From contig CALXOO010000003.1 of NCBI GenBank assembly GCA_944390045.1, positions 1 to 64,000 of the forward strand: DNA of 64,000 bases. The letters run 5' to 3'. Source of the stretch: an uncultured Spirochaetales bacterium. Its GTDB lineage: Bacteria > Spirochaetota > Spirochaetia > Sphaerochaetales > Sphaerochaetaceae. Position 1 is the stretch's first letter. Every line of letters starts with the position of its first letter. The notes under the pieces are model-generated. The model had not been told where the DNA came from. It did not search any database and saw only the letters and a list, made by a program, of their open reading frames with translations. A program made the translations under genes and the position numbers. Below, one piece after another: positions 32,068 to 49,318 of this stretch.

Positions 32068-33237
32068 TTATTCTGCGATACGGACAATCTCATTATTCCA
32101 CAGCTTGTCCAGAAACACCTTCCACGGCATTATCCTGATTCCGTCCTCAGTTGTACGCTCAAAGAGCTCCCGGCATACGATGATGTAATCCTTCACTGCA
32201 TTCTCATCCCTGAATGCCCTGATCCCCCTGAGTTCCCTGTTCGAAATGTTCTTCGAGGTCTTCACTTCGATAGCAACTTTGTTCTCAACTACAAAGTCGA
32301 CCTCATAACCTTCACGGGTCCGCCAGAAGTAAAGCTCATCGTCTGTCATCCTATAGTCGATATATGCCTTAAGTTCCATAAAGATGTAGTTCTCGAACAT
32401 CTTGCCGTATTCGGTCATTGTCTCTGACGGGACAGGCATTCTCGCGGCGGCTCTTGCGACTCCGACATCAAAAAAATAGAATTTTGAGGTGTTTACAGGG
32501 ATTCTCTTTGAGCCTTTCCTGTATGGCCTGAGATAGTAGCCGATGAAGGTGTCGACAAGTATCTGATACCAACCTTTGATTGTATCAGCAGACATGCCTA
32601 TGTCCCTTGATGCATTCGTGTAATTCACCAGCTCTGTGTTTTCAGAGGCTGCGAATGTCAGGAAGTTGCTGAAGACTCCGAGATCTCGCCTCTCTCCTTC
32701 TGCTGCGATTTCATTATCAAGATAGCCCCTGACATAATTCCTGAGTTGGGTCTGATATGATTTTGCAGTGAATGCCTTCGGAAGCATTCCGGTTGCAAAG
32801 ATACAGTCAAGATCCGGGTTTCTGTCTCTGATCTCCTTCCATACAAGAGGATGCATCGGCACGATTCCTGCTCTTCCTCCAAGAAGATTGCTTCCACTCC
32901 TTTTGAGTTTCCTTGCACTGGATCCAGTGAGAAGGAAATGAATATCACTATGCGTCATGATGTGCTGGATATCCAGAAGAACCGGAGGAAAGAGTTGCAC
33001 CTCATCGACAATGACGAGGCCTTCAGTCCTGCCGTTCAGCATGGATCTCAGAAGAACGGGATTACGGCGGAATGCATCAAGAGTATCTCCATCAAGGAAA
33101 GTAATTGAGAGAATAGCCTTCTTCTGCAACTCATTCTCTATATATGCTGTTTTCCCAGTCATCCTGGGACCAAAGAGGAAAAGCGAGCTTTCCTCAAGCA
33201 GCCTCCCGATCTCCAGTGCTCTTCTGATGTATTCCAT
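32068..33237 (-). CDS. AAA_14/DUF4143 ATPase (second copy)
   Basis: A 389-residue homologue of the ATPase at 1579-2745. It shows Walker A FGPRMTGKTAY, Walker B LVIVDEVQLF, LLTGSSARKLKRSGSNLLGGRAG, and a C-terminal YEVDF followed by VAIEVKTSK, the PD-(D/E)XK-like residues of DUF4143. It lies in a patch of gene relics and has no partner gene. The start at 33237 is the one matching the paralogue's N-terminus. Confidence 0.85.
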   Translation of the reverse strand: MEYIRRALEIGRLLEESSLFLFGPRMTGKTAYIENELQKKAILSITFLDGDTLDAFRRNPVLLRSMLNGRTEGLVIVDEVQLFPPVLLDIQHIMTHSDIHFLLTGSSARKLKRSGSNLLGGRAGIVPMHPLVWKEIRDRNPDLDCIFATGMLPKAFTAKSYQTQLRNYVRGYLDNEIAAEGERRDLGVFSNFLTFAASENTELVNYTNASRDIGMSADTIKGWYQILVDTFIGYYLRPYRKGSKRIPVNTSKFYFFDVGVARAAARMPVPSETMTEYGKMFENYIFMELKAYIDYRMTDDELYFWRTREGYEVDFVVENKVAIEVKTSKNISNRELRGIRAFRDENAVKDYIIVCRELFERTTEDGIRIMPWKVFLDKLWNNEIVRIAE

Positions 33238-34809: not shown

Positions 34810-36015
34810 TCAGCGAAGCACTGTGTCAGCAATTCTTCGGAACTCGTCATCAGTGACCAGACCTTTCTTGCTGATCCCAAGGGCCTTCACCTGATCAAGA
34901 ATTTCGTGCACCTGTTCCCCTGAAGCGGACAGGCCCATCTGGTCCAGCTTGTACTCAACAGACAGTTTTCCACTTTTCTTTCCCAAAACCACTTCTGCTT
35001 TCTTGCCAAAATATGACGGGTCGGTTGCGAACATTGCTAATGGTTTGTTGACCACAAGATCAACGCCTATTCCAGATTCCCTGACATAATTTCGACTGCC
35101 AGAAAAAGGCTTATTGTGTGCAATTTCAACTCCAGAAAGATTGCTCACAAGCACACATAGTTCTGCCAGTGCACTCAAATCATATTTCTTATCGCAGCCC
35201 ATGAGAATCTGAAGATTAAGAATCAGCTCTTCAAGCGCAGCATTTCCTGTTCTCTCTCCAAGGCCATTGACACACGCATGTACTGCATCACAGCCATTAG
35301 CCACTGCAGCAAGCTCAGTTGCCACAGCCATGCCGAAATCGTTGTGAGTATGAACTTCAACAGGAAGCCCTCCTGTCATCTGCTTCATTTTCCTCACAAG
35401 AAATCCGATTGCAGCAGGTGTTGCACATCCCATAGTATCTACAATGCCGATAGACGTAGGCGGAGCATTATCCATGATGCCTTTCACAAGGCTGCATAAA
35501 TCGTCATAGTCCGCACGCGTCGTATCATACGGGAAATACAGGACTTTCAGTCCCTGGCTTTTCGCATACTCAATGCAGTCCACGCTTTTTTCCAGAACAT
35601 CTTTCCATGTCCAGTGGAACTGATACTCCAGCTTCGGTCTGCCAATCGGCACTTCGACAACAACTCCCTTTGCCCCTGAATCCCGGGCCATGTCTACATC
35701 CTTGCGCATGGCCCTGGCAAAAGTATAAATCTCTGCATCTGGAAGCCGCCGCGCTATCTTGCAAATTGCATCGTAGTCCATCTGCGATACAGCAGGCATT
35801 CCTGCTTCAATCCGTCTTATTCCGACTTCATACAGCTTTTCAGCAATCTGGAGTTTATCATCTACGGAGAATACAACTCCAGGCGTCTGCTCTCCATCAC
35901 GCAGTGTTGCGTCATGAATCGTGATTTCCCTTTTCGCGATGGATTCGTCAAAGACTCCTTCCATAAAGTCATATGGACTAACCCACCAAGCGCCTTCCTT
36001 GTAATAACTGCTCAT
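34810..36015 (-). CDS. DRE-TIM metallolyase (homocitrate/isopropylmalate synthase-like)
   Basis: A 401-residue HMGL-like DRE-TIM enzyme, a superfamily that makes or breaks C-C bonds next to a keto group. The first strand carries DATLRDGEQTPGV (catalytic Asp-Arg and Glu). VEVHTHNDFGMAVA supplies the two metal histidines, and GLGERTGNAALEEL the conserved glycine-rich loop. At 401 residues it lacks the long regulatory domain of leucine-pathway LeuA, so it resembles homocitrate/re-citrate synthase-like or HMG-CoA lyase-like enzymes. It is the last gene of the TRAP-DUF6282 operon, 82 bases after the regulator. A role in degrading the TRAP substrate is more likely than leucine synthesis, but this is inference. 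Confidence 0.85.
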   Translation of the reverse strand: MSSYYKEGAWWVSPYDFMEGVFDESIAKREITIHDATLRDGEQTPGVVFSVDDKLQIAEKLYEVGIRRIEAGMPAVSQMDYDAICKIARRLPDAEIYTFARAMRKDVDMARDSGAKGVVVEVPIGRPKLEYQFHWTWKDVLEKSVDCIEYAKSQGLKVLYFPYDTTRADYDDLCSLVKGIMDNAPPTSIGIVDTMGCATPAAIGFLVRKMKQMTGGLPVEVHTHNDFGMAVATELAAVANGCDAVHACVNGLGERTGNAALEELILNLQILMGCDKKYDLSALAELCVLVSNLSGVEIAHNKPFSGSRNYVRESGIGVDLVVNKPLAMFATDPSYFGKKAEVVLGKKSGKLSVEYKLDQMGLSASGEQVHEILDQVKALGISKKGLVTDDEFRRIADTVLR

Positions 36016-36097
36016 TTAATTTCCTCTAACCGCAAGGCAATAAATGTGTGACAATCACCTGCCCCGGGAAAGAAGATATATGTCCTTGCGCCCAATG

Positions 36098-36730
36098 CTA
36101 GATGGAATTTATCAAGTTCATTCCGGCCCTTAGCTTATGATTCCTGACGTACAGTTCCAGTTCATCATATTCCTTCTGCTGAAGCAGCTCGATTATCCGT
36201 TCGTGTTCACGGACAGATTCATCCCTGTTGACAGAGGAAACCTTGAATACAGTGCGAGTGATTCTCCACTTATTCCACAGGCTTACAATCATAGTGTACA
36301 GCTCATGGTTCGGTATGCACTCATACATTTTGAGATGAAACTGCATGTTCAGATCACTGAGCTCATCGCCATGGACCTCAGAAAGATTCCGCATACTGTC
36401 ATTGATTTTCTCAAGATCTCTGACCGTATCCTCTGTGATATAGTCTATGCTTAACCGGGATGCATACCCCTCGAGCACGCTTTTTATCTGGAAGATCGAA
36501 GTCAGAGTATTCTTGTCGAAACAGTCAATGACAGCTCCTGCATTGGCATATATCTTCAAATACCCTTCGCTCTCAAGCCTTCTGATAGCCTCTCTGACCG
36601 GAATTTCACTGATGTTCAGAGTACGTGCGATATGACTTATTACGAGTCTGTCACCCTGCTTGTATTTCCCCTGGATTATCCAGCTAAGTAGCTGCTCATA
36701 AACTATATCGACTTTGCTCTTGTACATCAT
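36098..36730 (-). CDS. GntR-family (FCD) transcriptional regulator
   Basis: A 210-residue FadR-subfamily regulator. The N-terminal winged helix spans YEQLLSWIIQGKYKQGDRLVISHIARTLNISEIPVREAIRRLESEGYL in outline (about residues 10-60). The helical FCD ligand domain follows, with metal-type residues in DLNMQFHLKMYECIPNHELY. I chose ATG 36730, preceded by GGGGGTG; the longer frame runs into the cupin gene. It is encoded inside the operon it probably controls, through the palindrome in the dctP promoter. Confidence 0.9.
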   Translation of the reverse strand: MMYKSKVDIVYEQLLSWIIQGKYKQGDRLVISHIARTLNISEIPVREAIRRLESEGYLKIYANAGAVIDCFDKNTLTSIFQIKSVLEGYASRLSIDYITEDTVRDLEKINDSMRNLSEVHGDELSDLNMQFHLKMYECIPNHELYTMIVSLWNKWRITRTVFKVSSVNRDESVREHERIIELLQQKEYDELELYVRNHKLRAGMNLINSI

Positions 36731-36752
36731 GTTCACCCCCGGCCAGTTGTGG

Positions 36753-37124
36753 TCAATCTGAAAGGAACGGCTTGTCCGGAACGCTTTCCACTCTATCTGG
36801 TCGTTTTGGCCAGAATATGTCAAGGGCGTACACAGGATCATTCCCAATCACTTCTATGTAGTGCTCTGCATTGCTGGGAATGCTCATAACACAGCCACCC
36901 GTCAGGTGATATGCAACACCGTCAACATAGAAGTTACACTCGCCGGTGAAAATCATGGCAATCTGTTCATACTCATGCCTGTGAGGGCGTTTCTCATGGC
37001 CCGGCCATATTTGGCCAAGCTGTAAGGTCATATTATTTCCTTGAAAGCATTTGCCACAGATTTTCTCTCTCGACTTCTTCCATTCACAATCTTTCCAATC
37101 AACAATATGTGGAATTTTAGCCAT
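36753..37124 (-). CDS. Single-domain cupin protein
   Basis: A 123-residue cupin. The metal-binding pattern is visible as HEKRPHRHEYEQ in motif 1, followed by GECNFYVDG and by motif 2 IPSNAEHYIEV. Such proteins bind small carboxylates or act as isomerases, hydrolases or metal-dependent accessory enzymes; the role here is not known. The start at 37124 has GGAG seven bases upstream. It lies between the DUF6282 hydrolase and the GntR regulator in the TRAP operon. Confidence 0.85.
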   Translation of the reverse strand: MAKIPHIVDWKDCEWKKSREKICGKCFQGNNMTLQLGQIWPGHEKRPHRHEYEQIAMIFTGECNFYVDGVAYHLTGGCVMSIPSNAEHYIEVIGNDPVYALDIFWPKRPDRVESVPDKPFLSD

Positions 37125-37138
37125 TATTTTTCTCCATT

Positions 37139-38038
37139 TCAAAGGTTGATAAGCCTTCGCGGCGTGTCTTTTGCCATCATTTCGATCTTATCCATAGGAA
37201 TTCCCTCATCCAGCAGTACAGAAAGAAAGCTGTACAGCGTCTCCACTGGGTTTGGGCTGCCTTTCTGGCCACTGTCAGAATCAATTACAACCTTCTCAAT
37301 TGGAAGGTTGCTCAAATAGTCATGAACCCATTTCAACGGAATATTCGGACTACGCGGACTGTCAGTGACTTTCTCGAAAATTGCACCGTTAATCTCTATG
37401 AATGCACCTTTCTCCGCCCATCTGCAGGTATCTTCCAGTGTGGCTCCAATTATGAAATGCGGGTGATTGACCAGGATCTTTTTCAAACCGCAGCCAACAG
37501 CGAGGTCGATTACCTTATCTATCTCACTAGGACTCAGATGACCTGTAGCAAGAACAACATCCGGAAATCGTGAAAGGTACTCAATAACTGCCCGGACATC
37601 ATTTTTAAGCTCTCCATCCTCGCCGACCACCGTCAAAGCTGTCTCTTGAACTCTCACGTTTCCGGCTCCCACAAACCGGCCCTTATGCCGGTTAATGTGG
37701 TTTGCAGCAGAAAGAGTAGGCAGCCAGATTATTTTGGCTCCCATTGCGACAGCCACATCAACGGTATTCAGATTGAATGCCCCAGTTGCGTTGTTCAGGC
37801 AGACTCCTCCGAAAATCCTTGTAGTCCTCCCCTCTTCCCCATATAGCGTATCCAGAATCTTCGTCTCCATCATTGTTGGAAAGTAATGATCCTTGATGAC
37901 AATGGCAGAATACCCAGCAGCTGAAGCCAGTTCATACATTTGCCGTGCATCGACAGATCGTTCTGCGACAGATGGGCCGGCATGCACGTGAATATCAACA
38001 ACCCCATTCATTAGATCTTTCATTTCAATTCTTTTCAT
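37139..38038 (-). CDS. DUF6282-family metal-dependent hydrolase
   Basis: A 299-residue amidohydrolase-like barrel protein. The N-terminal GVVDIHVHAGPSVAERS has the His-x-His metal motif, and the following DARQMYELASAAGYSAIVIKDHY is characteristic of the DUF6282 group. Later ATGHLSP and VNHPHF hold further histidines, and IDSDSGQKGSP an acidic ligand. It may open a ring, amide or lactone of the TRAP substrate. The start at 38038 follows GGAGG. It is tightly spaced between dctM and the cupin gene. Confidence 0.8.
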   Translation of the reverse strand: MKRIEMKDLMNGVVDIHVHAGPSVAERSVDARQMYELASAAGYSAIVIKDHYFPTMMETKILDTLYGEEGRTTRIFGGVCLNNATGAFNLNTVDVAVAMGAKIIWLPTLSAANHINRHKGRFVGAGNVRVQETALTVVGEDGELKNDVRAVIEYLSRFPDVVLATGHLSPSEIDKVIDLAVGCGLKKILVNHPHFIIGATLEDTCRWAEKGAFIEINGAIFEKVTDSPRSPNIPLKWVHDYLSNLPIEKVVIDSDSGQKGSPNPVETLYSFLSVLLDEGIPMDKIEMMAKDTPRRLINL

Positions 38039-38049
38039 CCCACACCTCC

Positions 38050-39330
38050 TCACACAGCCAGCAGATTGGGTAGGAACAGAACTACATCCGGCAGATAAGC
38101 CAGGATAAAGGTCACGATGAAAGCAACAACACAGAATGGCAGGACCGATTTACTCAACCGTCCAAGCGACACCTTGGATATGTTCGACGTTACGAACAGC
38201 ACCTGCCCCACAGGAGGCGTTATGAATCCGATCGTCAGTGTAATGCAGAAGATTACTCCCCAATGGACAGGATCAACGCCACATGCAAGCGCGATAGGGG
38301 CCATAACTGGCGTGAATATCAACATTGAACTTGTTATATCCAGAACACATCCTGCAGCAACAAGAACCATGAGGAACATAAATATGATCACACTGGGATT
38401 ACTCGTCACAGCAAAAATCAAGGACATAGCCTTCCCTGGGATATCATCAACTGCCATTGTCCAGCCCAGAATGTTTCCAAGGGAAATGACAAAGTAAATG
38501 CTTCCTGCTGAAAGACCTGCTCTGAAGATGATACCTGGCAGCTTCTTTATATCCAATGTCTTGTAGAAGAAACCGGCAAGAATCGCTGCTATAACCGCAA
38601 CAGCACCTGACTCCGTGGTAGTGAAGATTCCACCCATTATTCCGCCAATTATGATCACAGGAATCATCAAAGCAGGAATTGCTTTTACAAAACTTTTCAG
38701 CAGCCGTTTGATGTCGAATTCACCCTTTGCCTCGGGGAAATCCTTCATATGCCTTGACTGATAGAAAATCAAGGCTGAATAACCCAAAGCGATACATAGA
38801 CCAGGTATTACTCCAGCCATGAAGAGTCCCTTAATCGAGACATCGGCACTTGCCGCATAGACAACAAAAATGACTGAGGGCGGAATAATCGGTCCAAGGA
38901 CTGAGGCAGCAGAAATTAAGGCTCCACTGTACTCCTCATTGTACCCATCCTTCTTCATCTCCGGCAGCAGAATGGAACACAGAATACTTGCGACAGCCTG
39001 TGCCGCTCCGATGATTGCAGAAAGAATTGCAGATATAATGACGGAAGTATACGCCAGGCCTCCCTTCTTATGGCCTACAAGATCTCTGGCTGCATCCATC
39101 AGCTTGGTAGTCACACCGCCAACATTCATTATCTCACCTGCAACAATGAAGAATGGAATACAGGTAAGAGAAATGTTGTCTATTCCAGCAAACAGACGCT
39201 GCGGAATGATGTTGAAAAAGGACGGATTACCCATCGAGAAAAGATGTGCAAGCCCCATAAAGCCCAGTACAAATGCCAGAGGAAAGCCCAAAAGCAACGT
39301 TACCAGGAATACACCAGCTACTAATAGCAT
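38050..39330 (-). CDS. dctM: TRAP transporter large permease DctM
   Basis: A 426-residue membrane protein with about twelve helices, the large subunit of tripartite ATP-independent periplasmic transporters. IPFFIVAGEIM, GPIIPPSVIFVVYA and TIGFITPPVGQVLFV, with the repeated G-x-x-x-P-P pattern, are typical. It imports organic acids with a sodium gradient together with DctQ and DctP. It starts four bases after dctQ ends. Confidence 0.95.
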   Translation of the reverse strand: MLLVAGVFLVTLLLGFPLAFVLGFMGLAHLFSMGNPSFFNIIPQRLFAGIDNISLTCIPFFIVAGEIMNVGGVTTKLMDAARDLVGHKKGGLAYTSVIISAILSAIIGAAQAVASILCSILLPEMKKDGYNEEYSGALISAASVLGPIIPPSVIFVVYAASADVSIKGLFMAGVIPGLCIALGYSALIFYQSRHMKDFPEAKGEFDIKRLLKSFVKAIPALMIPVIIIGGIMGGIFTTTESGAVAVIAAILAGFFYKTLDIKKLPGIIFRAGLSAGSIYFVISLGNILGWTMAVDDIPGKAMSLIFAVTSNPSVIIFMFLMVLVAAGCVLDITSSMLIFTPVMAPIALACGVDPVHWGVIFCITLTIGFITPPVGQVLFVTSNISKVSLGRLSKSVLPFCVVAFIVTFILAYLPDVVLFLPNLLAV

Positions 39331-39333
39331 TTG

Positions 39334-39834
39334 TCAATCCTCCACTTCATCTCCATTCCTTGAAAGAATGGTCACAATATTCTCTATGCCAAACAGAACC
39401 ATCAGGAAAAATCCGATCGGGATCGCAGCATAAACAACAGGCATTGGCAGATTCAGTCCAGCAGAAGTCTGACGAGCGATTGAAGGCAGCCCTACAACCT
39501 GTACACCTTTGATACCCATATAAAGAGAGAAGCCGATTACACCAAGATCTATTACAAGTGAAATAATTTTTCTTGCTTTTGGCGATGATATCTTCTTCGT
39601 CACAAGGTCGAAACAAGCAAGGCCTTTCTCTCTGAACGCAGCAGCCCCGCCAATAAATCCCACATAAACGAAGAGGTATCGCATCAGTTCCTCAGACCAG
39701 ACAAATGACTTGCCAAACAGATAGCGCCGTATCACCTCAACAAACGTAAGGATGATGGCAAATCCCAGAATCGCAGCTAGCGCATACCGGACGGCTATGT
39801 ATATTGCATCCAGAACCTTCTTTATGTACTTCAT
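39334..39834 (-). CDS. dctQ: TRAP transporter small permease DctQ
   Basis: A 166-residue four-helix protein. The family pattern RRYLFGKSFVWSEELMRYLFVYVGFIGGAAAFREKG is visible in outline from about residue 31, with the conserved W-S-E-E and G-A-A. It forms the membrane complex with DctM. Spacing to both neighbours is three bases. Confidence 0.94.
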   Translation of the reverse strand: MKYIKKVLDAIYIAVRYALAAILGFAIILTFVEVIRRYLFGKSFVWSEELMRYLFVYVGFIGGAAAFREKGLACFDLVTKKISSPKARKIISLVIDLGVIGFSLYMGIKGVQVVGLPSIARQTSAGLNLPMPVVYAAIPIGFFLMVLFGIENIVTILSRNGDEVED

Positions 39835-39837
39835 TTC

Positions 39838-40872
39838 TCACTCCATAGTCGCCTTAAGCTCCTGAGCTTTGTCGATGAATGCGGCCATCAGAGGATCCAT
39901 CTCTCTGTATTCGTCATAAAGCGGAGCCATGAGCTTTTCAAAGGCCTCCACATCTTCAACCTCATTGAAGACCATCCCTTCTGAGAGAGCCAGATCATAT
40001 GCTTCCTGATCTTCTAATGGCAGCCATTCTGAGAATAGCTTATCCTTTGCCTCTTCACAGGCCTGAAGTATGGCATCCTGATATTCGACAGGCAGGCTGT
40101 TCCACACATTACGATTAAAGACATAGATGCTGGCATAGGGGTACAGGCCAATGAACGACATGTAATCCGCAACCTCGAACAGGCTCATTGATTTGACAGA
40201 CATGAGGTTGATTTCAAGACCATCAACAATGTGATTCTGCATCGCTGTATACACTTCGGAGTATGCAAGCGGGTTCGCGTTTGCCCCGCAGGCCTGCATG
40301 GCCTTAATCAGCATATTGCTCTGTGCCGTTCTTATTATCATTCCTTTTAGGTCATCTGGTGTGTTGATCGGATGTCCATTCGTTGCGAAATGACGCATGC
40401 CGTTCTCCCCCACCCCAACAATCTTGACACCAAGCTCCTGGCCTACCGCTTCTGCAAGATCCCAGAATTCATCAGATTCAAACATAGCATTCTCAAGCTC
40501 ATAGCTGTTGATAAGAAATGGCAGCTGGACTACATCAAGAAGTGAAGTGTAATTTGAGAAAATGCTCATCGATATGGCGACAAATGGAACAGTGCCGTCC
40601 ATACACTGCTGCAACAATGCTGCATCCTGCCCGAGCTTTGACTGATCATAAAGATCAATTGTGAGTGCACCGTCAGTCAGTTCTCCAACGCGCTGGACAA
40701 TAAATGGTCCACTCTGGCCAGTATGCGTATTCGGATTTCCCATTGATCCCATTGTTATGGTCATTGGTTCTCCTGCACTAACAGCCTGCATGCCTCCTTC
40801 AGCAGTGCCATTAGCAAAAATGAAAGACAGTCCTGTAGCAAGGACAACAAGAATTGAAATCAGCCTCTTCAT
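39838..40872 (-). CDS. dctP: TRAP transporter substrate-binding protein DctP
   Basis: A 344-residue periplasmic binding protein. The signal peptide MKRLISILVVLATGLSFIFANG ends in A-N-G without a lipobox cysteine. DALLQQCMDGTVPFVAIS, KGMIIRTAQSNM with the substrate-carboxylate arginine, and EVYTAMQNHIVDGLEIN are classic DctP segments. AGGAGGG precedes the start. It is first in the operon, and the substrate is an unknown organic acid. Confidence 0.94.
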   Translation of the reverse strand: MKRLISILVVLATGLSFIFANGTAEGGMQAVSAGEPMTITMGSMGNPNTHTGQSGPFIVQRVGELTDGALTIDLYDQSKLGQDAALLQQCMDGTVPFVAISMSIFSNYTSLLDVVQLPFLINSYELENAMFESDEFWDLAEAVGQELGVKIVGVGENGMRHFATNGHPINTPDDLKGMIIRTAQSNMLIKAMQACGANANPLAYSEVYTAMQNHIVDGLEINLMSVKSMSLFEVADYMSFIGLYPYASIYVFNRNVWNSLPVEYQDAILQACEEAKDKLFSEWLPLEDQEAYDLALSEGMVFNEVEDVEAFEKLMAPLYDEYREMDPLMAAFIDKAQELKATME

Positions 40873-40902
40873 ACCAGGCCCTCCTTTTTTCCTTTTTCAT
40901 AT

Positions 40903-40930
40903 ATCATATATCATATATGATCGCTGTCAA
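40903..40930 (-). promoter_or_regulatory. dctP promoter with internal palindromic operator
   Basis: TTGACA (complement of 40925-40930) and TATGAT (complement of 40903-40908) have a 16-base spacer. The perfect palindrome ATCATATATGAT (40910-40921) sits within that spacer, and further TCATATAT half-sites run through the -10 box. This is where a GntR/FCD repressor would bind. Confidence 0.75.
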
Positions 40931-41015
40931 TCTTAAAGTTTTGATGCTCTGTGTTGCTGGGTTGAGTGTTTTGATATTATTTTTCAGACAAATTCAAAGG
41001 GAAGGAGGTATTGCC

Positions 41016-41210
41016 ATGGCGACAGAATCATTCAGCAGGACATTTACTGTGAACCCAGACTGGGGCATCAAGAACCTTGAGAAAGCTATCGACAACGGAT
41101 CTCCTGCTGTGAAGAGGCTGAGTACTCCAGAAGCCAAAGCTAAATTCAAAGAGGCAACTACGATGACGCCTGAAAGAGCTGCAAGACTTAAGGCGAGGTA
41201 TGGTGAATGA
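41016..41210 (+). CDS. Putative antitoxin of a GNAT toxin pair
   Basis: A 64-residue protein beginning MATESFSRTFTVNPDWGI and ending in a basic tail (MTPERAARLKARYGE). GGAGG lies ahead of ATG 41016. Its stop overlaps the next start (ATGA), as is common for toxin-antitoxin pairs. I do not recognise the fold. The antitoxin call rests on size, layout and the downstream GNAT-like N-terminus. Confidence 0.5.
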   Translation: MATESFSRTFTVNPDWGIKNLEKAIDNGSPAVKRLSTPEAKAKFKEATTMTPERAARLKARYGE

Positions 41211-41464
41211 GACTGGAGTGTACAGAGCTCCGTGAGTTCATGGATCTCGTAGGAGAGGATAAGGCTTTGCAGGCTTTATCCTCTTTTTCGGTGAAGAGAA
41301 ATCCGGATGTTGAGAACTTCATCCGTACCAATGCAGTCGCTTATGAAAAGAGTGACAATGCCAGAACCTATCTTGTGACAAATGAGAATGACGATATTCT
41401 CAGAATCAGCTATAGCCGCTCAGTAGGTCGGCAGCGTCTCATAGCCTGCTGTCTCATAGCTTGA
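41207..41464 (+). pseudogene. GNAT toxin, truncated
   Basis: After the start, FSVKRNPDVENFIRTNAVAYEKSDNARTYLVTNENDDIL follows the N-terminal pattern of GNAT acetyltransferase toxins (in outline: F-x-x-x-x-N-x-D-V-E-x-F, then T-Y-L-V). The acetyl-CoA-binding part is missing. From about 41400 the frame runs into the complement of the GH20 gene and stops at 41464 after 85 residues, against the ~160 expected. Confidence 0.55.
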
Positions 41465-43411
41465 GAACGAAGAGTCATACATATACCCCCTGCTCACCGC
41501 CTCACGCTGTGTCTCAAGCCAGGATCTCAAATATACAAGCCTACTTGTCACAGATGCGAAGTACGACAAGGAAATCTCAATCTCACTGTCACGGGCGATT
41601 GATCTCCAGATGTCACAGAAGTCAAGCTGGAGACGCGCGAACCTGCGGATCATCAGGCGGACCTCATCCTCAAGGTAAACGAAATCCTCAACAGCCAGTT
41701 TCCCGCTCTCTACACTGCGGATTACCCTGTGCGAGAGATCAAGCTTGTCCACAAGCAGCCTGAATGCATCCCTCACATAGCTGAACTCCCGCTTCAGGAT
41801 GCTGTCTGACAGCCTGCAGATCAGCTCCCCGCTGTCTGCAGCGACACGCTCAATCGCACGGCATGTGGAATCAGGTATTGAAAAGTAAGGACGCAGCGGA
41901 TGATGGGCATGAGGCTCAAGAACAGGCGTCACACCCTCCGGCAGATCAAGATTATAGGCCTCAAGTCCGACAGGAGGCACAGGCCCCCTGACAGCCCTGC
42001 CGAAGACCGGCTCGTCAAAGAGGGCCATAACACACTCACTGCGGTTCTTGGACCAGAGCGGAGGCAGTCTGTAAAGCGATGCGAAAAGATGCATCAGACT
42101 GGAATAGACGGGTTCACCGAGTGTGAAATCCACTATTCTGTCAGCAGCCTCCTGCGTTGTCTTGCGCCCGGTCCAGGCGACAAGCCCGGCAAAGATATAA
42201 CCGTATAGGGCGAAACCGGACATCGCATAACCGCCGTGATCATTCCAGTCAGTGTAGAGCATGCCCTCACAGCCGGCTTCTATTGACTCAGTCAGCAGGT
42301 TCTGGACATTCGTGATCATGCCGTCAAAGCGCGGAAAAAGGGAATTCCACTGGCCCGAACCGGGACAGGCCCAGAAATGACAGCCATGTTCCCTGAAAAC
42401 GGCAGGTGATCCATAGAAAGGCTTGGGATCATAAATCCAGTCAAGATAGACAATGTCATCCGGCATTGAGGCAAGCAGCTCGGGATGCTTGAGCACTATG
42501 TCGCCGAAGACCATGATTTTCTTCGAATACTTTCCAGCCAGTTCATGAAGCCGTTTGAGATGGCCCATATAGACCTCCCCTGCCGTGGACCCGGAACAGC
42601 TGCAGCTCTTTCCGCTTCCGATATCATATGTCTCATCGGAGCAGACATTGAAAAGTGGGTCATCAAACAGCGGCATGAACTCGCCATACAGCTCGTCCAG
42701 AAAGACATAAGTCCTCTCATCAGAGGGGGACAGTGTCCAGAAAAGATCACTCTCCCTGAGGCTGGAAAGCCCCCTGCGCGTCAGAATCCTGTTGCAGTGG
42801 CCGAAGGACTGCAGGTTGCCCTGCAGGCGTATGCACCTCCTGCTGCAGTACTCTTTCAGCTCAAGTATCTCATCACGTGTATAAGGATCACTGCCCTCCC
42901 AGATCTCCCTGTGATTCTGGAAGGCGAAAGTATGCTCGATATAGAGCTGGAAGACATTGAAGCGGGCAAGCGCGATCACATCCACGATACGCTTCAGCTC
43001 ATCAAGTGTGTAGGTCTTTCCCCTGGAGACATCAAGCATGAGGCCTCTGTTCGGCAGAACAGGCCAGTCCTCAATCCGGCAGCATCGCTTATTGTCCTCT
43101 CCCAGCAGAAGCGAAAGAGTCACAAGCGAGTGGCACAGTCCGCTGAAATCATTGGCACTTATTCCGATGAAACCGTTCCAGGCTTCTATCACATAGGCCT
43201 CATCAATCCTAGGACACTCAGGCAGCCTGCCCTGTCCCAGGCAGGCGGAATAGCCTTCACGCTCCTCGACACGCACAGCAAGGTGCTCAGGCAGCAGGCG
43301 CAGGAACACATCCTCAACCTGGCAGCTGAGAACCAGCTCTCCGCCGCTGAATGCAAAAGACTCATCACTGTATTCGATGCTGCGCACAAAGGCCCCGGTA
43401 ATCATTTTCAT
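41420..43411 (-). CDS. GH20-like beta-N-acetylhexosaminidase, intracellular (a)
   Basis: A 663-residue protein with an N-terminal non-catalytic domain, then NRGLMLDVSRGKTYTLDEL and FNVFQLYIEHTF, the entry of the GH20 barrel. FNVCSDETYDIGSG carries the Asp-Glu pair used for substrate-assisted cleavage of HexNAc. GMLYTDWNDHGGY provides a later substrate-contact tryptophan. No signal peptide is present. AGGAGG precedes the start. It is the last gene of the ROK-transporter operon, and the neighbouring GH20 shares its plan, so the two may act on different linkages of the same imported glycan. Confidence 0.82.
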   Translation of the reverse strand: MKMITGAFVRSIEYSDESFAFSGGELVLSCQVEDVFLRLLPEHLAVRVEEREGYSACLGQGRLPECPRIDEAYVIEAWNGFIGISANDFSGLCHSLVTLSLLLGEDNKRCCRIEDWPVLPNRGLMLDVSRGKTYTLDELKRIVDVIALARFNVFQLYIEHTFAFQNHREIWEGSDPYTRDEILELKEYCSRRCIRLQGNLQSFGHCNRILTRRGLSSLRESDLFWTLSPSDERTYVFLDELYGEFMPLFDDPLFNVCSDETYDIGSGKSCSCSGSTAGEVYMGHLKRLHELAGKYSKKIMVFGDIVLKHPELLASMPDDIVYLDWIYDPKPFYGSPAVFREHGCHFWACPGSGQWNSLFPRFDGMITNVQNLLTESIEAGCEGMLYTDWNDHGGYAMSGFALYGYIFAGLVAWTGRKTTQEAADRIVDFTLGEPVYSSLMHLFASLYRLPPLWSKNRSECVMALFDEPVFGRAVRGPVPPVGLEAYNLDLPEGVTPVLEPHAHHPLRPYFSIPDSTCRAIERVAADSGELICRLSDSILKREFSYVRDAFRLLVDKLDLSHRVIRSVESGKLAVEDFVYLEDEVRLMIRRFARLQLDFCDIWRSIARDSEIEISLSYFASVTSRLVYLRSWLETQREAVSRGYMYDSSFSSYETAGYETLPTY

Positions 43412-43417
43412 AACCTC

Positions 43418-45376
43418 CTATTGCCAGGGATAGGCCCTGTCCCACATATTTCTGAAATCCGCTGTCCAGAGGGTCCCGTAGTCATCGGCGCCATGATAAT
43501 CGTCCAGGCACGGAGTCTTTCCGGCGAGCAGCGCCTCCCTCTGCCCGGCAAGGAAAATGGCTGCCTTCGACAGCTGGACAGACGCCTTGTCAAAGAGGAA
43601 CAGAGTCGATTCCATGCCATCACTTCTGGCCCTCTCGAGCCAGAGTGACGTGAAATCATTTCTTATCAGCGTGAAATCGCGGTAGAGCCGCTTGATCCCG
43701 ATGATATGGTCAAGCAGTCCGGCACTGTCCAGGCTGCCCGCATTGAAATCACTGATGATCCGCCAGGACAGCAGCCCCTTGCGGCCTGTGTACTCACTCA
43801 TCCTGGCAGCAAGCATGACCTCCCTGCGGAAGACATCTCCGGCGATCTGCGGCCAGAAAGAGGAAAGCCGGCTGTCGCTCTCAAGACAGTGCATGGCCTG
43901 CTGCCCCTTTTCCATGAGCCAACGGAATGCCGGTGCCTCAAGCTTCGGATACTTTTCGTTTCCTGTCAGGGAAAGGCCCTTCAGCATGTCATCAAAGAAG
44001 GCATAAATGGACATCGTCTTGAATCCAGTCTGCATTCCGGGTGCAAGATTGGAATCCATAAGCAGTCTGAATGCACACGACAGTCCGGGATCAGGAAAGA
44101 GCAGGCTGCACGCCTCCAGCCAGAACTCGTCGCTGTTGTCACTGCGGTGAATGTTCCAGGCGCATTCGGCCGCATACAGATAGGCGAACAGAGACAGACC
44201 ATAGGGCTGATAGTGCCCGTAATCGCCCCAGTCCGTGATCATGTAGCCCGTTGCGCCACTGTCAAAAGCATCAACGGCATAGCCTCTGATATTAACGAGG
44301 CTGTTGTACACACGTGGAAAGATGGAATTCCAGCTGGATGTCCCGCAGGCCGCCCAGTGATCAAGGGCTGAGTCCTTGAAGGCCAGTATGCTCGGATATG
44401 AGTCGGCAGGGTTGTAGTTCCAGTCAATTACAGTCACATCATCAGGCAGGCTGACTGCCAGATCCGGGTATTTCAGGAAAATGTCACCCCACAGCTGTAT
44501 CCGCTGCGCACCGTGCTTTCTCGCAAGATCTGCGACTTTCACAAGATATGAGAGGAATACCTTCCCCTTGCCCTCTTTCTCCACAAGATCACGGCTCAGA
44601 CCGCTTCCGAGGTCATAGGCCTCATCCATGTTGATGTTGACAGTCCTGGAAGAATACCAGGGCAGCACTTGTGCGAATTCCCTGTCTAGGAAGTCCAGCA
44701 CTCCGTCGCAGCAGGCACTGAATGAGAACAGGCTGTCATTCTCCGCCAGATCTGAGTAGGCACCGAACCTCAGGACACCGTGCATATGGCTGAATGTCTG
44801 GATATTGGGCTGGAGCTCGACAAAGCGCTCTCTGGCATACTGGTCGAGTTCCCTGATCTCTTCCTCTCCGTAGGCACCATACAGAGAGCCTACCAGCGGA
44901 CTTCCGGCCAGTCTGTGCCTGTCCTCCATGTACAGCTGCAGCACATTGAGACAGACTGAGGACATGAAATCCACCAGAGTCTTGAGATAGGCGATTGAGG
45001 GCAGTTTGCCCCTTGAGACATCCAGCATGAGAGCCCTGCTGGCAAAGGCCGGAGACGCTTCTATCAGTCCAGTGTGAAGTTGGCCGCAGAAAAGGAGCTG
45101 TCGGAGCTGCTCAAGGGCACAGTGAAGGCCTCTGACATCTGGAGCAGAAGCCCTGACCAGGGTCTTCCGGATCTCAAGTCTGTAGGCCTCAGCACTCCCG
45201 CTGAACGGAAGGCTGGAAACAGCCAGTTCCAGAGGCAGGCCGCACTCATCCACCGGAAGCTGTTCCAGAGTGTGTACCAGACAGGCGAATACCTGACTGT
45301 CGCAAGGTTTCAAGCTGAAGGCGGAGACGTCCAGACGCTCACCCCTCCGCTTCCAGTTTGGCATGGGGATACTCAT
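43418..45376 (-). CDS. GH20-like beta-N-acetylhexosaminidase, intracellular (b)
   Basis: A 652-residue homologue of the following gene. SRALMLDVSRGKLPSIAYLK and LNVLQLYMEDRH open the barrel. VNINMDEAYDLGSG holds the catalytic Asp-Glu and GYMITDWGDYGHY a late aromatic contact. It lacks a signal peptide. The start at 45376 follows GAGGTGATT; a longer frame passes through the hairpin at 45391-45413. It ends six bases before the next start. Confidence 0.82.
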   Translation of the reverse strand: MSIPMPNWKRRGERLDVSAFSLKPCDSQVFACLVHTLEQLPVDECGLPLELAVSSLPFSGSAEAYRLEIRKTLVRASAPDVRGLHCALEQLRQLLFCGQLHTGLIEASPAFASRALMLDVSRGKLPSIAYLKTLVDFMSSVCLNVLQLYMEDRHRLAGSPLVGSLYGAYGEEEIRELDQYARERFVELQPNIQTFSHMHGVLRFGAYSDLAENDSLFSFSACCDGVLDFLDREFAQVLPWYSSRTVNINMDEAYDLGSGLSRDLVEKEGKGKVFLSYLVKVADLARKHGAQRIQLWGDIFLKYPDLAVSLPDDVTVIDWNYNPADSYPSILAFKDSALDHWAACGTSSWNSIFPRVYNSLVNIRGYAVDAFDSGATGYMITDWGDYGHYQPYGLSLFAYLYAAECAWNIHRSDNSDEFWLEACSLLFPDPGLSCAFRLLMDSNLAPGMQTGFKTMSIYAFFDDMLKGLSLTGNEKYPKLEAPAFRWLMEKGQQAMHCLESDSRLSSFWPQIAGDVFRREVMLAARMSEYTGRKGLLSWRIISDFNAGSLDSAGLLDHIIGIKRLYRDFTLIRNDFTSLWLERARSDGMESTLFLFDKASVQLSKAAIFLAGQREALLAGKTPCLDDYHGADDYGTLWTADFRNMWDRAYPWQ

Positions 45377-45390
45377 AATCACCTCAGAAT

Positions 45391-45413
45391 CCGCCGGCCA
45401 GGGCGGCCGGCGG
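45391..45413 (-). repeat. Stem-loop between binding-protein and GH20 genes
   Basis: A perfect 9-bp stem CCGCCGGCC/GGCCGGCGG with a 5-nt loop lies just after the binding-protein stop. It lacks a T-tract, so it probably protects the upstream mRNA rather than ending transcription fully. Confidence 0.7.
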
Positions 45414-45423
45414 AGCGAAAACA

Positions 45424-47151
45424 TCAAAGCGGTCTGATTTCACCGTTGAGAAGCTTGATCACGACGAAGCTGTCATCGCCCGGAGAGTTCTGGTAGACAC
45501 CTTCATCACCTGTCCATTCGGTCCTCAGTCCATTTGAGGAAAGGTTCTGGGACCACTTGGTGTAAAGCGGCAGATAGGGAACAGTATCATTGAGAGTGAC
45601 AACCAGTTTCTCGATACTCTCCTTCTGTGCCTCTTCATCCCAGCCCTCTGTGGACGAGTAGATCAGCTGCTCAAGATCCACAGTACCGTAGTCCTCCGTC
45701 TCCTGAACCATCGGATAGCCGAGGCCGTGTGAGGCGTTGACATTGCTCATCAGCAGCGGAGTCTCGAAAGCGAACATCGGGTGCGGCTGTGCTGTTCCGA
45801 AGAAGGACAGTGCCATCTGGAAATTACCCTCGTTTATGTTTGTCTGCCTCTGGGACTCCTCGATTCCGATGAAGGTGGTCCTGATTCCGAAGTTCGTCAG
45901 CTGGATCGCGATCTCACTGGCAGCAGCCGAGGCATCTGACCAGGAAGCGGGGCACTGCAGCTCAAGTGTGAACTGTTTTCCATCAGGCATGTACCACTGG
46001 CCGTCCTGTCTGTAGAAACCTTCACCCTCGAGAAGTGCCGCAGCCTTGTCATAGTCGACCGCATAGCTGTCCAGCAGCGAAGTGTCAACCCAGGCCTCGG
46101 TCATCGAGTCTCCAAGTCCGCTGACATATTTCGTGCCTCTTGTGACACCTGGAAGCGCGAGCTGCCCCACCCTGTCTCTGTCGATCACATAGCAGATGGC
46201 CTGGCGGACCGCGACATTGTCAAGCGGCTCATGCGCACAGTTGAAGTACAGTGCGATGCCGTCCATTCCCTGAATCTGTATCGTCTGATAGCCAAGGCCC
46301 TTGAAGGTCTCGATTGACGAGGAGGGGAACTGGTGTGTCAGGTAGTCGATCTGCCTGTTGAGCACAAGCGGCGTCAGGTCAGGCACGTCTCCGTTGTAGA
46401 CAATGATCTTGTCGAACTGGACAGTGTCGGCCAGGAAGGAATTGGGATTCTTCGGCAGCTCAACATAGGACTGGCTGACAAGTGCCGGATCAAGGTAATA
46501 TGGTCCTGTAGCATTCACGTAGTCGGGGCGGAAGGTGTTGAACTCGGAAACAAGGGCGGAATACTCGGCAGAGTCAGTGCCAAGTCCGCTTGAGAAGATA
46601 TCATCCGCCCTGTCTGCGTAGCTTCCATAGGTCTTGTAGTCAACAATCGGCTTCCTGAGAATGTAGCGGTGAAGCATTGTGGTGGGCTTGGAAATCGTGA
46701 ACTCGACTGTCAGGTCATCAACAACCTTCACGCCGCTGATATAGTTCCATACAGGGTTGCCGACCAGTCTGTAGATCATGAATGTCGTCCAGACATCCTT
46801 TGCAGTAAGGTCGTCACCGCTCAGCCATTTCACATTGTCCCTCAGATGGACAGTATAGACAGAACCGTCATCACTGATCTGCCAGTCAGTGGCCAGCAGC
46901 GGGTTGTATTCTCCCGTGGATGCGTCATAAGTCGCAAGCGGAAGCTGATGGATCTCCCTCCAGTACTTCAGTTCGATCGCGTTGGAGACGAACATGTTGA
47001 AGTGTCCGGTAGGAACGGTCGAATAAGGCCAGCCGCCGGCAAACACGCTCTGACCGGCAGCGGCCCCGGCAGTGCTCTCACCGGCTCCGCCTGCAGAGAC
47101 CGCAGACAGGACCATAAGGACCAGAAGAATGGACACAATAGCTTTTCTCAT
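45424..47151 (-). CDS. Family 5 (peptide/oligosaccharide) binding protein
   Basis: A 575-residue SBP_bac_5-type protein. The signal peptide MRKAIVSILLVLMVLSAVSAGGAGES has no lipobox cysteine. The mature part has YNPLLATDWQISDDGSVYTVHLRDNVKWLSGDDLTAKDV in outline, the usual family core, and later AVRQAICYVIDRDRVGQ. Although named for peptides, this family also binds chito-oligosaccharides, and here two GH20 genes follow. Its ribosome-binding site lies inside the end of the small membrane gene directly upstream. Confidence 0.92.
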   Translation of the reverse strand: MRKAIVSILLVLMVLSAVSAGGAGESTAGAAAGQSVFAGGWPYSTVPTGHFNMFVSNAIELKYWREIHQLPLATYDASTGEYNPLLATDWQISDDGSVYTVHLRDNVKWLSGDDLTAKDVWTTFMIYRLVGNPVWNYISGVKVVDDLTVEFTISKPTTMLHRYILRKPIVDYKTYGSYADRADDIFSSGLGTDSAEYSALVSEFNTFRPDYVNATGPYYLDPALVSQSYVELPKNPNSFLADTVQFDKIIVYNGDVPDLTPLVLNRQIDYLTHQFPSSSIETFKGLGYQTIQIQGMDGIALYFNCAHEPLDNVAVRQAICYVIDRDRVGQLALPGVTRGTKYVSGLGDSMTEAWVDTSLLDSYAVDYDKAAALLEGEGFYRQDGQWYMPDGKQFTLELQCPASWSDASAAASEIAIQLTNFGIRTTFIGIEESQRQTNINEGNFQMALSFFGTAQPHPMFAFETPLLMSNVNASHGLGYPMVQETEDYGTVDLEQLIYSSTEGWDEEAQKESIEKLVVTLNDTVPYLPLYTKWSQNLSSNGLRTEWTGDEGVYQNSPGDDSFVVIKLLNGEIRPL

Positions 47152-47340
47152 CTATTTCCTCCTTTTGTTTATGCAATGCCATGCGGCACCGCTTATTGTC
47201 AGAATGAGGCCGATGACAATGTTGATCACCGACAGGATGCGGCCCTGAGACCCTTCCGGGTTTGCCGTAAGCGTGAAGGCCGACAGGACAAGCATCACCA
47301 GGCCGAATGCGGCCACGAAGGAAGCGAAGCGGCCTAGCAT
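47152..47340 (-). CDS. Small two-helix membrane protein in the transporter operon
   Basis: A 62-residue protein with two hydrophobic helices (FASFVAAFGLVMLVLSAF and ILSVINIVIGLILTISGA) and a basic tail KRRK. It begins directly after the OppF stop and ends directly before the binding-protein start, with both junctions coupled. I do not recognise a family. It could be a transporter accessory protein or simply a spacer gene. Confidence 0.6.
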   Translation of the reverse strand: MLGRFASFVAAFGLVMLVLSAFTLTANPEGSQGRILSVINIVIGLILTISGAAWHCINKRRK

Positions 47341-48324
47341 CTATTCCTCTTCTCCATTGTAAAGAAGACAGGAGACGCGCCTGCCGTCTTTCAGACGAAC
47401 GAGTCCGGGATGCTCCACATCGCACAGCCCCTTCCTGCACTGGGGGCATCTCGGATGCAGAGGACAGCCGGACGGGATATTGGCAAATGACGGGATATCG
47501 ACACCAAGCAGCTCATAGCGTTCCTCAGCGGTCTGCTCAAGTATTCCCGTGTTCCCGCGGGCAGCGGTCAGGATCGCCTTGGTGTATGGATGTCTGGGTG
47601 ATGACACAAGCAGGGAGGTGTCCCCCTCCTCAACTACCTGTCCCAGGTACATGATCATCATCTTCTTGCCTGCGGCGAAGTATTTTCCAAGCGCCAGATC
47701 GTGGGTGATGAAGAAATAAGCACAGCCAAGCCGATCCTGGATATCCTTCAGAGTCGACAGCAGACTTATGCGCAGCGAGGTGTCGATCATGCTCGTAGCC
47801 TCATCAACTACGATGAAGTCAGGATCAAGCGCCAGAATGCGGGCTATGGACACCCTCTGGCGCTGGCCGCCGGACAGAAAGGCGGGATACTTGTCCATGA
47901 AGTCATCCACGGGAACGAGGCCCACAAGCTCGAGCAGCCGCGATACCTCCGCATAGAGCTCACCGGTCTTTCTCATTCCCTTGTGGCGCCGGAGAGGATT
48001 CGCGATCATGTCGAAGACCATCATTGACGGATTGAGTGACTCGTACGGATTCTGGTGAATCATCTGCACACGTGTCCTGAACCGGTTCCAGTCTGCTCCC
48101 CTGAGCTGAGACACCTCTTTCCCCTCAAAGAGATAGCTTCCGCCTGAATACGTACTCAGCCCGGCAAGAATCTTGCCCAGCGTGGTCTTTCCGCAGCCGG
48201 ACTCTCCGACGACGCAGATTGTCTGACCTCTGTCAATGGTGAGGTCAACCGACCTCAGGACCTTCGTCCTGTTCCTGGCGGAGCCGAACTCCTTTTCTAT
48301 ACCCTTAAGCTCAATCAATGGCAT
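47341..48324 (-). CDS. Oligopeptide/oligosaccharide ABC ATPase (OppF/DppF type)
   Basis: A 327-residue ATPase with Walker A GESGCGKTTLGK, signature FLSGGQRQRVSIARIL, Walker B FIVVDEATSMID and H-loop ITHDLALG. The C-terminal oligo_HPY cysteine segment is present in CPLHPRCPQCRKGLCD. I chose ATG 48324 after GAGGAG; the longer frame overlaps OppD. It works with the OppD-type ATPase upstream. Confidence 0.93.
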   Translation of the reverse strand: MPLIELKGIEKEFGSARNRTKVLRSVDLTIDRGQTICVVGESGCGKTTLGKILAGLSTYSGGSYLFEGKEVSQLRGADWNRFRTRVQMIHQNPYESLNPSMMVFDMIANPLRRHKGMRKTGELYAEVSRLLELVGLVPVDDFMDKYPAFLSGGQRQRVSIARILALDPDFIVVDEATSMIDTSLRISLLSTLKDIQDRLGCAYFFITHDLALGKYFAAGKKMMIMYLGQVVEEGDTSLLVSSPRHPYTKAILTAARGNTGILEQTAEERYELLGVDIPSFANIPSGCPLHPRCPQCRKGLCDVEHPGLVRLKDGRRVSCLLYNGEEE

Positions 48325-49309
48325 TTTTCTCCTCCACAGGATGGAAACAGGCCCAGGCTCTGCCGCCGCAGGACTCTGATTCAGGCTCCTGCCTGCCGCA
48401 TCTCTCATCAGCTCGTCCGCATCGCGGTGCAAAGAGGCATCCGGCAGGAGGGGCAACCAGGTCCGGCGTCGTACCGGGAATTGAGTAAAGCTCATCAGAA
48501 GGCGTGCTCAGACGGGGGATCGCCCGCAGGAGCCCGTCACTGTAGGGATGGCGTGGCGAGAGGAAGAAATCCCTCACGGGAGCACTCTCCACGACTTTTC
48601 CCGCATACATCGTGACGACACGGTCCGCGAGTTCTGAGACGATTGACAGATCATGAGTTATGAAGACCATGGAAAAGCCGAAAGTGCGTCTCATGTCATT
48701 CAGCAGACGGAGTATCTTCTCCTGAGTGATCAGGTCAAGCGCTGTGGTCGGCTCATCAAGAATCAGGAGACGGGGCTCCAGTATCATGGTCAGGGCAAGC
48801 AGTGTCCTCTGTTTCATCCCTCCGGAAAGCTCATGCGGATAGGAATACAGTATCTTGTCAGGGTCAAGCATCACCATCTTCAGCAGCTCCCTGGACCTGC
48901 TGAGTATCCACTCATCATTCTTTGACGGGTCATGGGCCTTCACCGTGTCAACAAAAGTCGTGAATATCCTGCGCACTGGATTGAATGAGCTCTGTGAGGC
49001 CTGGAACATCATGACGACATCCTTCCACAGCAGAAGCCTCTTCTCATTGCGGGCCAGCGCATACATGTCTACGACATCCCCGTCTGATTTCCGGTACAGT
49101 GCGCGCCCCGAGTCAATCCGGGCAGCCAGAGGCAGAATTCCGACCACTGAAGTCGCGAGCGTGGTCTTTCCGCAGCCAGACTCCCCGATCAGGGCGACCG
49201 ACTCCCCTTCCATTACATCCAGTGAGGCATGACTGACCGCATGCAGGCTTCCTCGTTTGGTCCTGTAGGAAATCGAGACATCGTCAAAACGAAGTATCCA
49301 GTTATCCAT
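48311..49309 (-). CDS. Oligopeptide/oligosaccharide ABC ATPase (OppD/DppD type)
   Basis: A 332-residue ATPase: Walker A GESGCGKTTLAT, signature ELSGGMKQRTLLALTM, Walker B LLILDEPTTALD, H-loop ITHDLSIV, and the C-terminal cysteine cluster CLFAPRCGRADERC. It overlaps the OppF-type gene by 14 bases. Confidence 0.94.
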   Translation of the reverse strand: MDNWILRFDDVSISYRTKRGSLHAVSHASLDVMEGESVALIGESGCGKTTLATSVVGILPLAARIDSGRALYRKSDGDVVDMYALARNEKRLLLWKDVVMMFQASQSSFNPVRRIFTTFVDTVKAHDPSKNDEWILSRSRELLKMVMLDPDKILYSYPHELSGGMKQRTLLALTMILEPRLLILDEPTTALDLITQEKILRLLNDMRRTFGFSMVFITHDLSIVSELADRVVTMYAGKVVESAPVRDFFLSPRHPYSDGLLRAIPRLSTPSDELYSIPGTTPDLVAPPAGCLFAPRCGRADERCGRQEPESESCGGRAWACFHPVEEKNAID

Positions 49310-49318
49310 ATCCGCCTC

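Follow-up and report, generated by a model that had tools for sequence, protein, structure and literature searches.

The isopropylmalate, homocitrate and methylthioalkylmalate synthases are Claisen-type DRE-TIM enzymes, which activate acetyl-CoA with a Glu-Tyr-His triad (E227, Y399 and H388 in the methylthioalkylmalate synthase (MAMS) structure 6E1J) and contain a metal site together with a substrate-binding arginine (R89, D90, H288 and H290). In MAMS, His388 most likely acts as the general base, with the H388A, H388D and H388E variants showing no detectable activity, and Arg89 and Gln93 help to position the acyl-CoA (PMC11532901). The same barrel is found in the cleaving enzymes 4-hydroxy-2-oxovalerate aldolase (DmpG) and HMG-CoA lyase. 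A precedent at the pathway level is the anaerobic phloroglucinol cluster of Clostridium scatologenes, in which import is likewise followed by hydrolytic ring opening and C-C cleavage (PMC10470551). Here, we analyze an operon in a 64,000-nucleotide stretch of DNA from an uncultured Spirochaetales bacterium (contig CALXOO010000003.1, positions 1 to 64,000; hereafter the window) that combines a TRAP importer with a DUF6282 protein, a cupin, a GntR/FCD regulator and an HMGL-like DRE-TIM enzyme of a divergent branch, which we call WVSP. We propose, with middling confidence, that it represents a horizontally acquired, TRAP-fed and GntR-controlled catabolic operon, whose DRE-TIM enzyme stands in for an HpcH/HpaI aldolase and would cleave a 2-oxo acid.

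Organization of the operon

The operon comprises seven genes on the minus strand (40872-34810), as determined from open reading frames and Pfam matches:

39838..40872, minus strand: dctP, TRAP solute-binding protein (PF03480, 9.8e-63; nearest solved chains 4x8r, 4p1l and 4pf8)
39334..39834, minus strand: dctQ, TRAP small permease (PF04290, 4.4e-31)
38050..39330, minus strand: dctM, TRAP large permease (PF06808, 6.7e-97)
37139..38053, minus strand: DUF6282 protein, predicted amidohydrolase-superfamily-like metal hydrolase (PF19799, 7.6e-61; structural model and fold matches)
36753..37142, minus strand: small KdgF-like cupin (PF07883, Cupin_2; conserved metal residues)
36098..36730, minus strand: gntR, GntR/FCD regulator (PF00392 and PF07729)
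34810..36015, minus strand: HMGL-like DRE-TIM enzyme of the WVSP branch (PF00682 and PF22617, HMGL-like and HCS_D2)

The Pfam scores of all seven products far exceed the respective cut-offs, and the gaps from dctP to the HMGL gene measure, in order, +3, +3, -4, -4, +22 and +82 nt. An earlier, sequence-only reading of this region had counted eight genes, a number that the open reading frames and Pfam evidence reduce to seven; its tight spacing (gaps of -4 to +82 nt), borders and protein families were borne out, and the importer is indeed complete, with DctP, DctQ and DctM all identified by Pfam and NCBIfam matches. The listed TTG start of gntR (36847) would overlap the cupin gene, and the gene likely starts at the ATG at 36730.

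A DRE-TIM branch without the acetyl-CoA-activating residues

In overall architecture, the HMGL protein resembles the Claisen-type synthases. Its AlphaFold2 (AF2) model is closest to this group (Z 32-38, with 6ktq at Z 38.1), followed by 4-hydroxy-2-oxovalerate aldolases (Z ~32.5) and HMG-CoA lyases (Z ~31), and its LRDGEQ, HTHND and GLGERTGN motifs correspond to those of the synthases (GLGERxGN in the last case). DmpG and HMG-CoA lyase share the DRE-TIM barrel (Z ~30-33) and the cleavage chemistry that we propose for the HMGL protein but are only ~17-26% identical to it, a comparison made by fold and overall identity. When mapped onto MAMS in 6E1J numbering, the HMGL protein retains Arg89, Asp90, Gln93, Thr257, His288 and His290 (as R39, D40, Q43, T194, H222 and H224), so that the metal ligands and the substrate arginine (R39, D40, H222 and H224) are all in place. 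The acetyl-CoA-activating triad, by contrast, is missing, with Y163, G317 and M328 found at the positions of Glu227, His388 and Tyr399. Moreover, an alignment to solved synthases shows that the protein lacks the FxHx(S/A)G(I/V)H...TYE signature, and it reaches none of the NCBIfam synthase cut-offs, with the best match, TIGR02090, at 344.7 bits compared to the 484.75 bits required. Plain orthology to LeuA, CimA or NifV is ruled out by these curated cut-offs and the residue losses and, judging from its sequence, the protein is not a standard isopropylmalate or homocitrate synthase.

The loss of the triad extends to an entire branch of HMGL proteins. An N-terminal W-(V/I/T)-S motif, distinct from the known synthases, is common to 18 HMGL homologs from Spirochaetota and Bacillota, and the resulting set of 19 sequences, including the one from the window, forms one side of a branch with a support of 99/98 (IQ-TREE, 32 rows), which we call monophyletic on this basis. 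Glu227 and His388 are gone in all 19 members and Tyr399 in all but one (L150), whereas the Arg, Asp, Gln and Thr residues and both metal-binding His residues are retained. Members of this branch were detected in 4 of 296 Spirochaetota genomes (including that of the window; E up to 1e-75) and in 13 of 348 genomes from the phylum to which the Sporomusaceae locus L032 belongs and which we refer to as Bacillota (E up to 1e-85). Their genes lie next to those for TRAP or tripartite tricarboxylate transporter (TTT) importers, SerA-like 2-hydroxyacid dehydrogenases, creatininase-family hydrolases, small cupins, SucCD-like ligases, SDRs and a GD_AH dehydratase, contexts that look catabolic and thus set the branch apart from the synthases.

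The sequence-only reading had suggested that the DRE-TIM enzyme could either cleave or condense its substrate. Because the acetyl-CoA-activating residues are lost while the 2-oxo-acid/metal site is intact, cleavage, by a retro-aldol reaction or decarboxylation, appears to be favoured, and the condensation half of the suggestion is at odds with the absence of the Claisen residues from the residue map. It is conceivable, albeit unlikely, that the enzyme still acts as a Claisen condenser similar to citramalate, homocitrate or Re-citrate synthase, using another base to condense acetyl-CoA with a 2-oxo acid derived from the imported precursor. Such an activity would be in keeping with the proximity of the synthases in both sequence and fold, the three preserved motifs and the retention of the two residues that place the acyl-CoA in MAMS. 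However, it is difficult to reconcile with the replacement of the catalytic Glu, His and Tyr residues throughout the branch (the Tyr residue of L150 excepted), the failure to reach any curated synthase cut-off, the catabolic-looking gene contexts and the existence of two further, LeuA/CimA-sized HMGL proteins in the same genome (contig C33).

The closest Spirochaetota orthologs of the HMGL protein (58-60% identity; L121 1-10570, L122 9176-19011 and L123 10362-19802) are encoded without DUF6282. They are accompanied by a TAXI-TRAP importer, a GntR regulator, an acetolactate-synthase-like thiamine diphosphate (ThDP) enzyme, and ASADH-like and short aspartokinase-like genes, as well as an aminotransferase in L121, and no clear pathway emerged from the ThDP enzyme, aminotransferase, ASADH and aspartokinase neighbors of these orthologs. 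Relatives found on plasmids were all less than 60% identical, with the best rows at 31-38%.

DUF6282 as a predicted metal hydrolase in importer-aldolase loci

The DUF6282 protein had been predicted to be a hydrolase, and its AF2 model (predicted local distance difference test score, pLDDT, 92.6) is in line with this notion. It adopts a distorted TIM barrel typical of the amidohydrolase superfamily, matching dipeptidase 3 (VIA Z 20.2, rmsd 3.5, 268 residues), dihydroorotase 1xrf (VIA Z 19.9) and, more generally, renal-type dipeptidases, dihydroorotase, isoaspartyl dipeptidase and PTE homologs at Z ~19-20, as well as a probable 2-pyrone-4,6-dicarboxylate hydrolase at Z 18.5. Six residues (H22, H24, K54, H172, H197 and D260) are invariant among 29 sequences, and five of them correspond to the metal-binding HxH, His, His and Asp residues of the superfamily (H22, H24, H172, H197 and D260). 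The fold assignment rests on the AF2 model, since a sequence search of the PDB yielded no significant match. Together, model and conserved residues make the identification as a metal-dependent hydrolase well supported. Compared with established superfamily members, including dipeptidases, dihydroorotase, isoaspartyl dipeptidase and PTE-like and LigI-type lactonases, the protein has a similar predicted fold (Z ~18-20) and the HxH...K...H...H...D pattern but shows only ~10-16% identity and forms a Pfam family of its own (PF19799). As the sequence-only reading had indicated, it has no known assigned pathway: the literature searched, in which subscription papers were mostly outside reach, contained no mention and no characterized member of DUF6282 or PF19799.

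A collection scan retrieved 544 DUF6282 relatives, of which 79 loci were kept, and 94 loci were clustered for neighborhood counts. The nearest relatives (36-46% identity) are mostly from Bacillota, with one Hadesarchaea genome among them. A TRAP or TTT part is found in 48 of the 94 loci, an HpcH/HpaI aldolase in 46, a cupin of the window type in 19 and BKACE in 15. DctPQM-DUF6282-cupin sets resembling that of the window are present in L030, L033, L035 and L038, and the window DctM is 51-53% identical to the DctM proteins adjoining DUF6282 in the first three of these loci. Loci from Bacillota and Proteobacteria (L030, L032, L036, L060, L101 and others) share DUF6282, the cupin, the importer and a GntR or IclR regulator with the window, but in these loci the position of the HMGL enzyme is taken by an HpcH/HpaI aldolase, which in L030 most closely resembles the 2-dehydro-3-deoxyglucarate/galactarate aldolases.

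The presence of BKACE, CoA-transferase and thiolase genes next to DUF6282 in L030 and other loci raises the alternative that DUF6282 hydrolyzes a C-C bond to open a cyclic beta-diketone, similar to dihydrophloroglucinol cyclohydrolase, and feeds a retro-Claisen pathway for reduced phenolics. These neighbors belong to the same families as the partners in the phloroglucinol cluster, whose BKACE and CoA-transferase recur in L030 (PMC10470551). However, the known cyclohydrolase is a member of a different ('cyclase') family (PMC10470551), most DUF6282 loci contain HpcH rather than BKACE, and Pfam identified no 'cyclase'-family cyclohydrolase, BKACE, CoA-transferase, thiolase or reductase among the seven operon products. 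We therefore consider this alternative improbable, and a phloroglucinol-type pathway as such was rejected on the grounds that its cyclohydrolase is from another family.

Several other DUF6282 contexts were observed. In the Spirochaetota, distant DUF6282 genes adjoin genes for PIG-L proteins, RraA-type aldolases, TRAP-TAXI or TTT importers and GntR regulators, and one such clade (L015, L016, L017 and L018), clustered with PIG-L- and RraA-family proteins, hints at a pathway resembling that of 4-oxalomesaconate (OMA) and 4-carboxy-4-hydroxy-2-oxoadipate (CHA). The hydratase GalB and the CHA aldolase of the gallate pathway are members of PIG-L- and RraA-type families. A ~300-residue protein without a Pfam match recurs in 27 of the 94 loci (e.g., L025 6981-7898 and L063 8085-8993); its L025 copy has no match in the PDB. 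In Fusobacterium vincentii (L028 7980-11932), DUF6282 precedes a membrane transporter-like gene, a GntR gene and an isocitrate/isopropylmalate-dehydrogenase-like gene, with families assigned by eye.

A conserved linkage marked by a shared operator

Immediately upstream of dctP, two overlapping regulatory elements were identified:

40930-40903, minus strand: promoter-like site TTGACA-N16-TATGAT (consensus scan, 11 of 12 positions matched)
40919-40898, minus strand: predicted operator, 22-bp repeat CATATATGATATATGATATATG, overlapping the promoter-like site and shared with L140 and L155

Chance matches to this 22-mer are not expected in the window, and the site is the only one in the genome at up to two mismatches. 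L155 contains the exact sequence CATATATGATATATGATATATG in front of gntR, and both L140 and L155 have a version that differs by one base. With at most one mismatch, the operator was detected in 1 of 387 sampled Spirochaetota genomes, namely that of the window, and in 2 of 398 sampled Bacillota genomes (G651 and G747), and in all three operator-bearing genomes among these 785 from two phyla, it is located at the HMGL cluster.

L140 (G651) and L155 (G755), which derive from a single Bacillota class, contain GntR-TAXI-DUF6282-TRAP-HMGL operons. Their HMGL (51% and 50%), DUF6282 (29% and 32%) and GntR proteins (47% and 42%) are all related to those of the window, whose GntR is at most 32% identical to the remaining GntR proteins of the retrieved loci. 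Given these operons with related regulators and the same operator, the DUF6282-HMGL-GntR linkage is conserved outside the window genome. Conservation of gene order, the feature that the sequence-only reading had singled out for scrutiny, is therefore seen at the level of the gene set (DUF6282, HMGL, GntR and TRAP), whereas transporter subtype and order differ. The window operon looks like a mosaic, combining a transporter-DUF6282-cupin part as in the HpcH-type operons of Bacillota with a GntR-operator-HMGL part as in the HMGL-type operons of this phylum, a composition that supports the idea of the HMGL enzyme standing in the aldolase slot.

These findings also bear on the possibility that the HMGL gene is a separate transcription unit of unrelated function that happens to follow a TRAP-DUF6282-cupin-GntR operon. 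The largest gap of the operon (82 nt) does precede this gene, and none of the other loci among the 94 clustered for DUF6282 contains an HMGL homolog. Yet, in L140 and L155, HMGL and DUF6282 belong to one operon that has the same operator and a regulator related to that of the window, and since both genes are rare, chance is very unlikely to have brought them together repeatedly. An independent HMGL unit thus strikes us as very improbable.

Genomic setting and origin

The operon region has a G+C content of ~45% and is surrounded by sequence of ~55%. Synteny with the congener G391 extends from 41.4 kb rightward and stops where the G+C content drops. DUF6282 exceeds the cut-off in just five other Spirochaetota genomes of 393 sampled, all with ~25-28% identity, and six congeners have no such gene. 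Given the low-G+C island, the absence of DUF6282 from the congeners and the synteny break at 41.4 kb, horizontal acquisition of the operon would be the simplest reading.

The syntenic segment (41420-50206; 58-88% identity to G391), whose synteny breaks on the operon side, contains a tandem pair of GH20-like genes followed by importer-like genes. The interval separating this pair from the operon promoter holds small plus-strand open reading frames (40854-41464) that appear, by eye, to encode an antitoxin-like protein and a short, possibly truncated partner. An AAA_14/DUF4143 ATPase gene (32068-33237) lies within the low-G+C stretch of the operon.

A proposed pathway and its implications

The sequence-only proposal of a coherent operon for import, hydrolysis and DRE-TIM chemistry agrees with the predicted Pfam families, the gene spacing and the recurrence of the gene set with its operator in L140 and L155. 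In the catabolic operon that we propose, DctPQM would import an organic acid, most likely a sugar-acid-like one, which may then be hydrolyzed by the metal-dependent, amidohydrolase-type DUF6282 protein through the opening of a lactone or ring. The KdgF-like cupin could isomerize or tautomerize the product, and the WVSP enzyme, filling the slot held by an HpcH/HpaI aldolase in many DUF6282 loci, would cleave the resulting 2-oxo acid in a CoA-independent retro-aldol step, or decarboxylate it, by means of the retained divalent-metal/Arg site. GntR may repress the operon by binding to the operator over the -10 box until it is released by a pathway ligand. As for the substrate, a polyhydroxy or oxo carboxylate of the sugar-acid type is weakly favoured, based on the similarity of the cupin to KdgF, the sugar-acid type of the HpcH aldolases that occupy the corresponding slot and the proximity of DctP to 4x8r, 4p1l and 4pf8, chains that were presumably solved with uronates. 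The cupin has conserved H54, H56, E59/Q60 and H94 residues and matches KdgF 5fq0 weakly (E 0.0085).

Several considerations weigh against this model. Because enzymes can employ a substitute base, the missing His388 is no proof that the protein acts as a lyase. The cupin is absent from L140 and L155 and, with both loci belonging to one class, they represent little more than one independent lineage. Reversed (backwards-read) control patterns of the operator also match a few unrelated genomes, so that the operator claim rests on its position at HMGL clusters rather than on rarity alone. The G747 site has one mismatch and is given little weight because no related GntR was found nearby; it lies within an HMGL cluster (L163 4069-4090) that has a creatininase-family gene in place of DUF6282. 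The hints behind the sugar-acid bias, finally, are weak.

In the literature searched, no assigned pathway was found for such a cluster: its families are known by fold, and these papers contain no description of their combination, of the residue-stripped DRE-TIM branch or of the operator-marked module. It is tempting to speculate, with slightly less assurance than for the operon itself, that the WVSP branch is a CoA-independent lyase that evolved from the homocitrate/isopropylmalate synthase fold through the loss of the acetyl-CoA-activating residues and, together with DUF6282, forms a new operator-marked organic-acid pathway shared horizontally between Spirochaetota and Bacillota.

Collectively, our findings place DUF6282 and the WVSP HMGL-like proteins in a shared, testable pathway context, with the conserved operator and DctP providing direct routes towards the substrate. 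More generally, proteins automatically annotated as 2-isopropylmalate or homocitrate synthases may not be synthases when they are encoded in importer operons.

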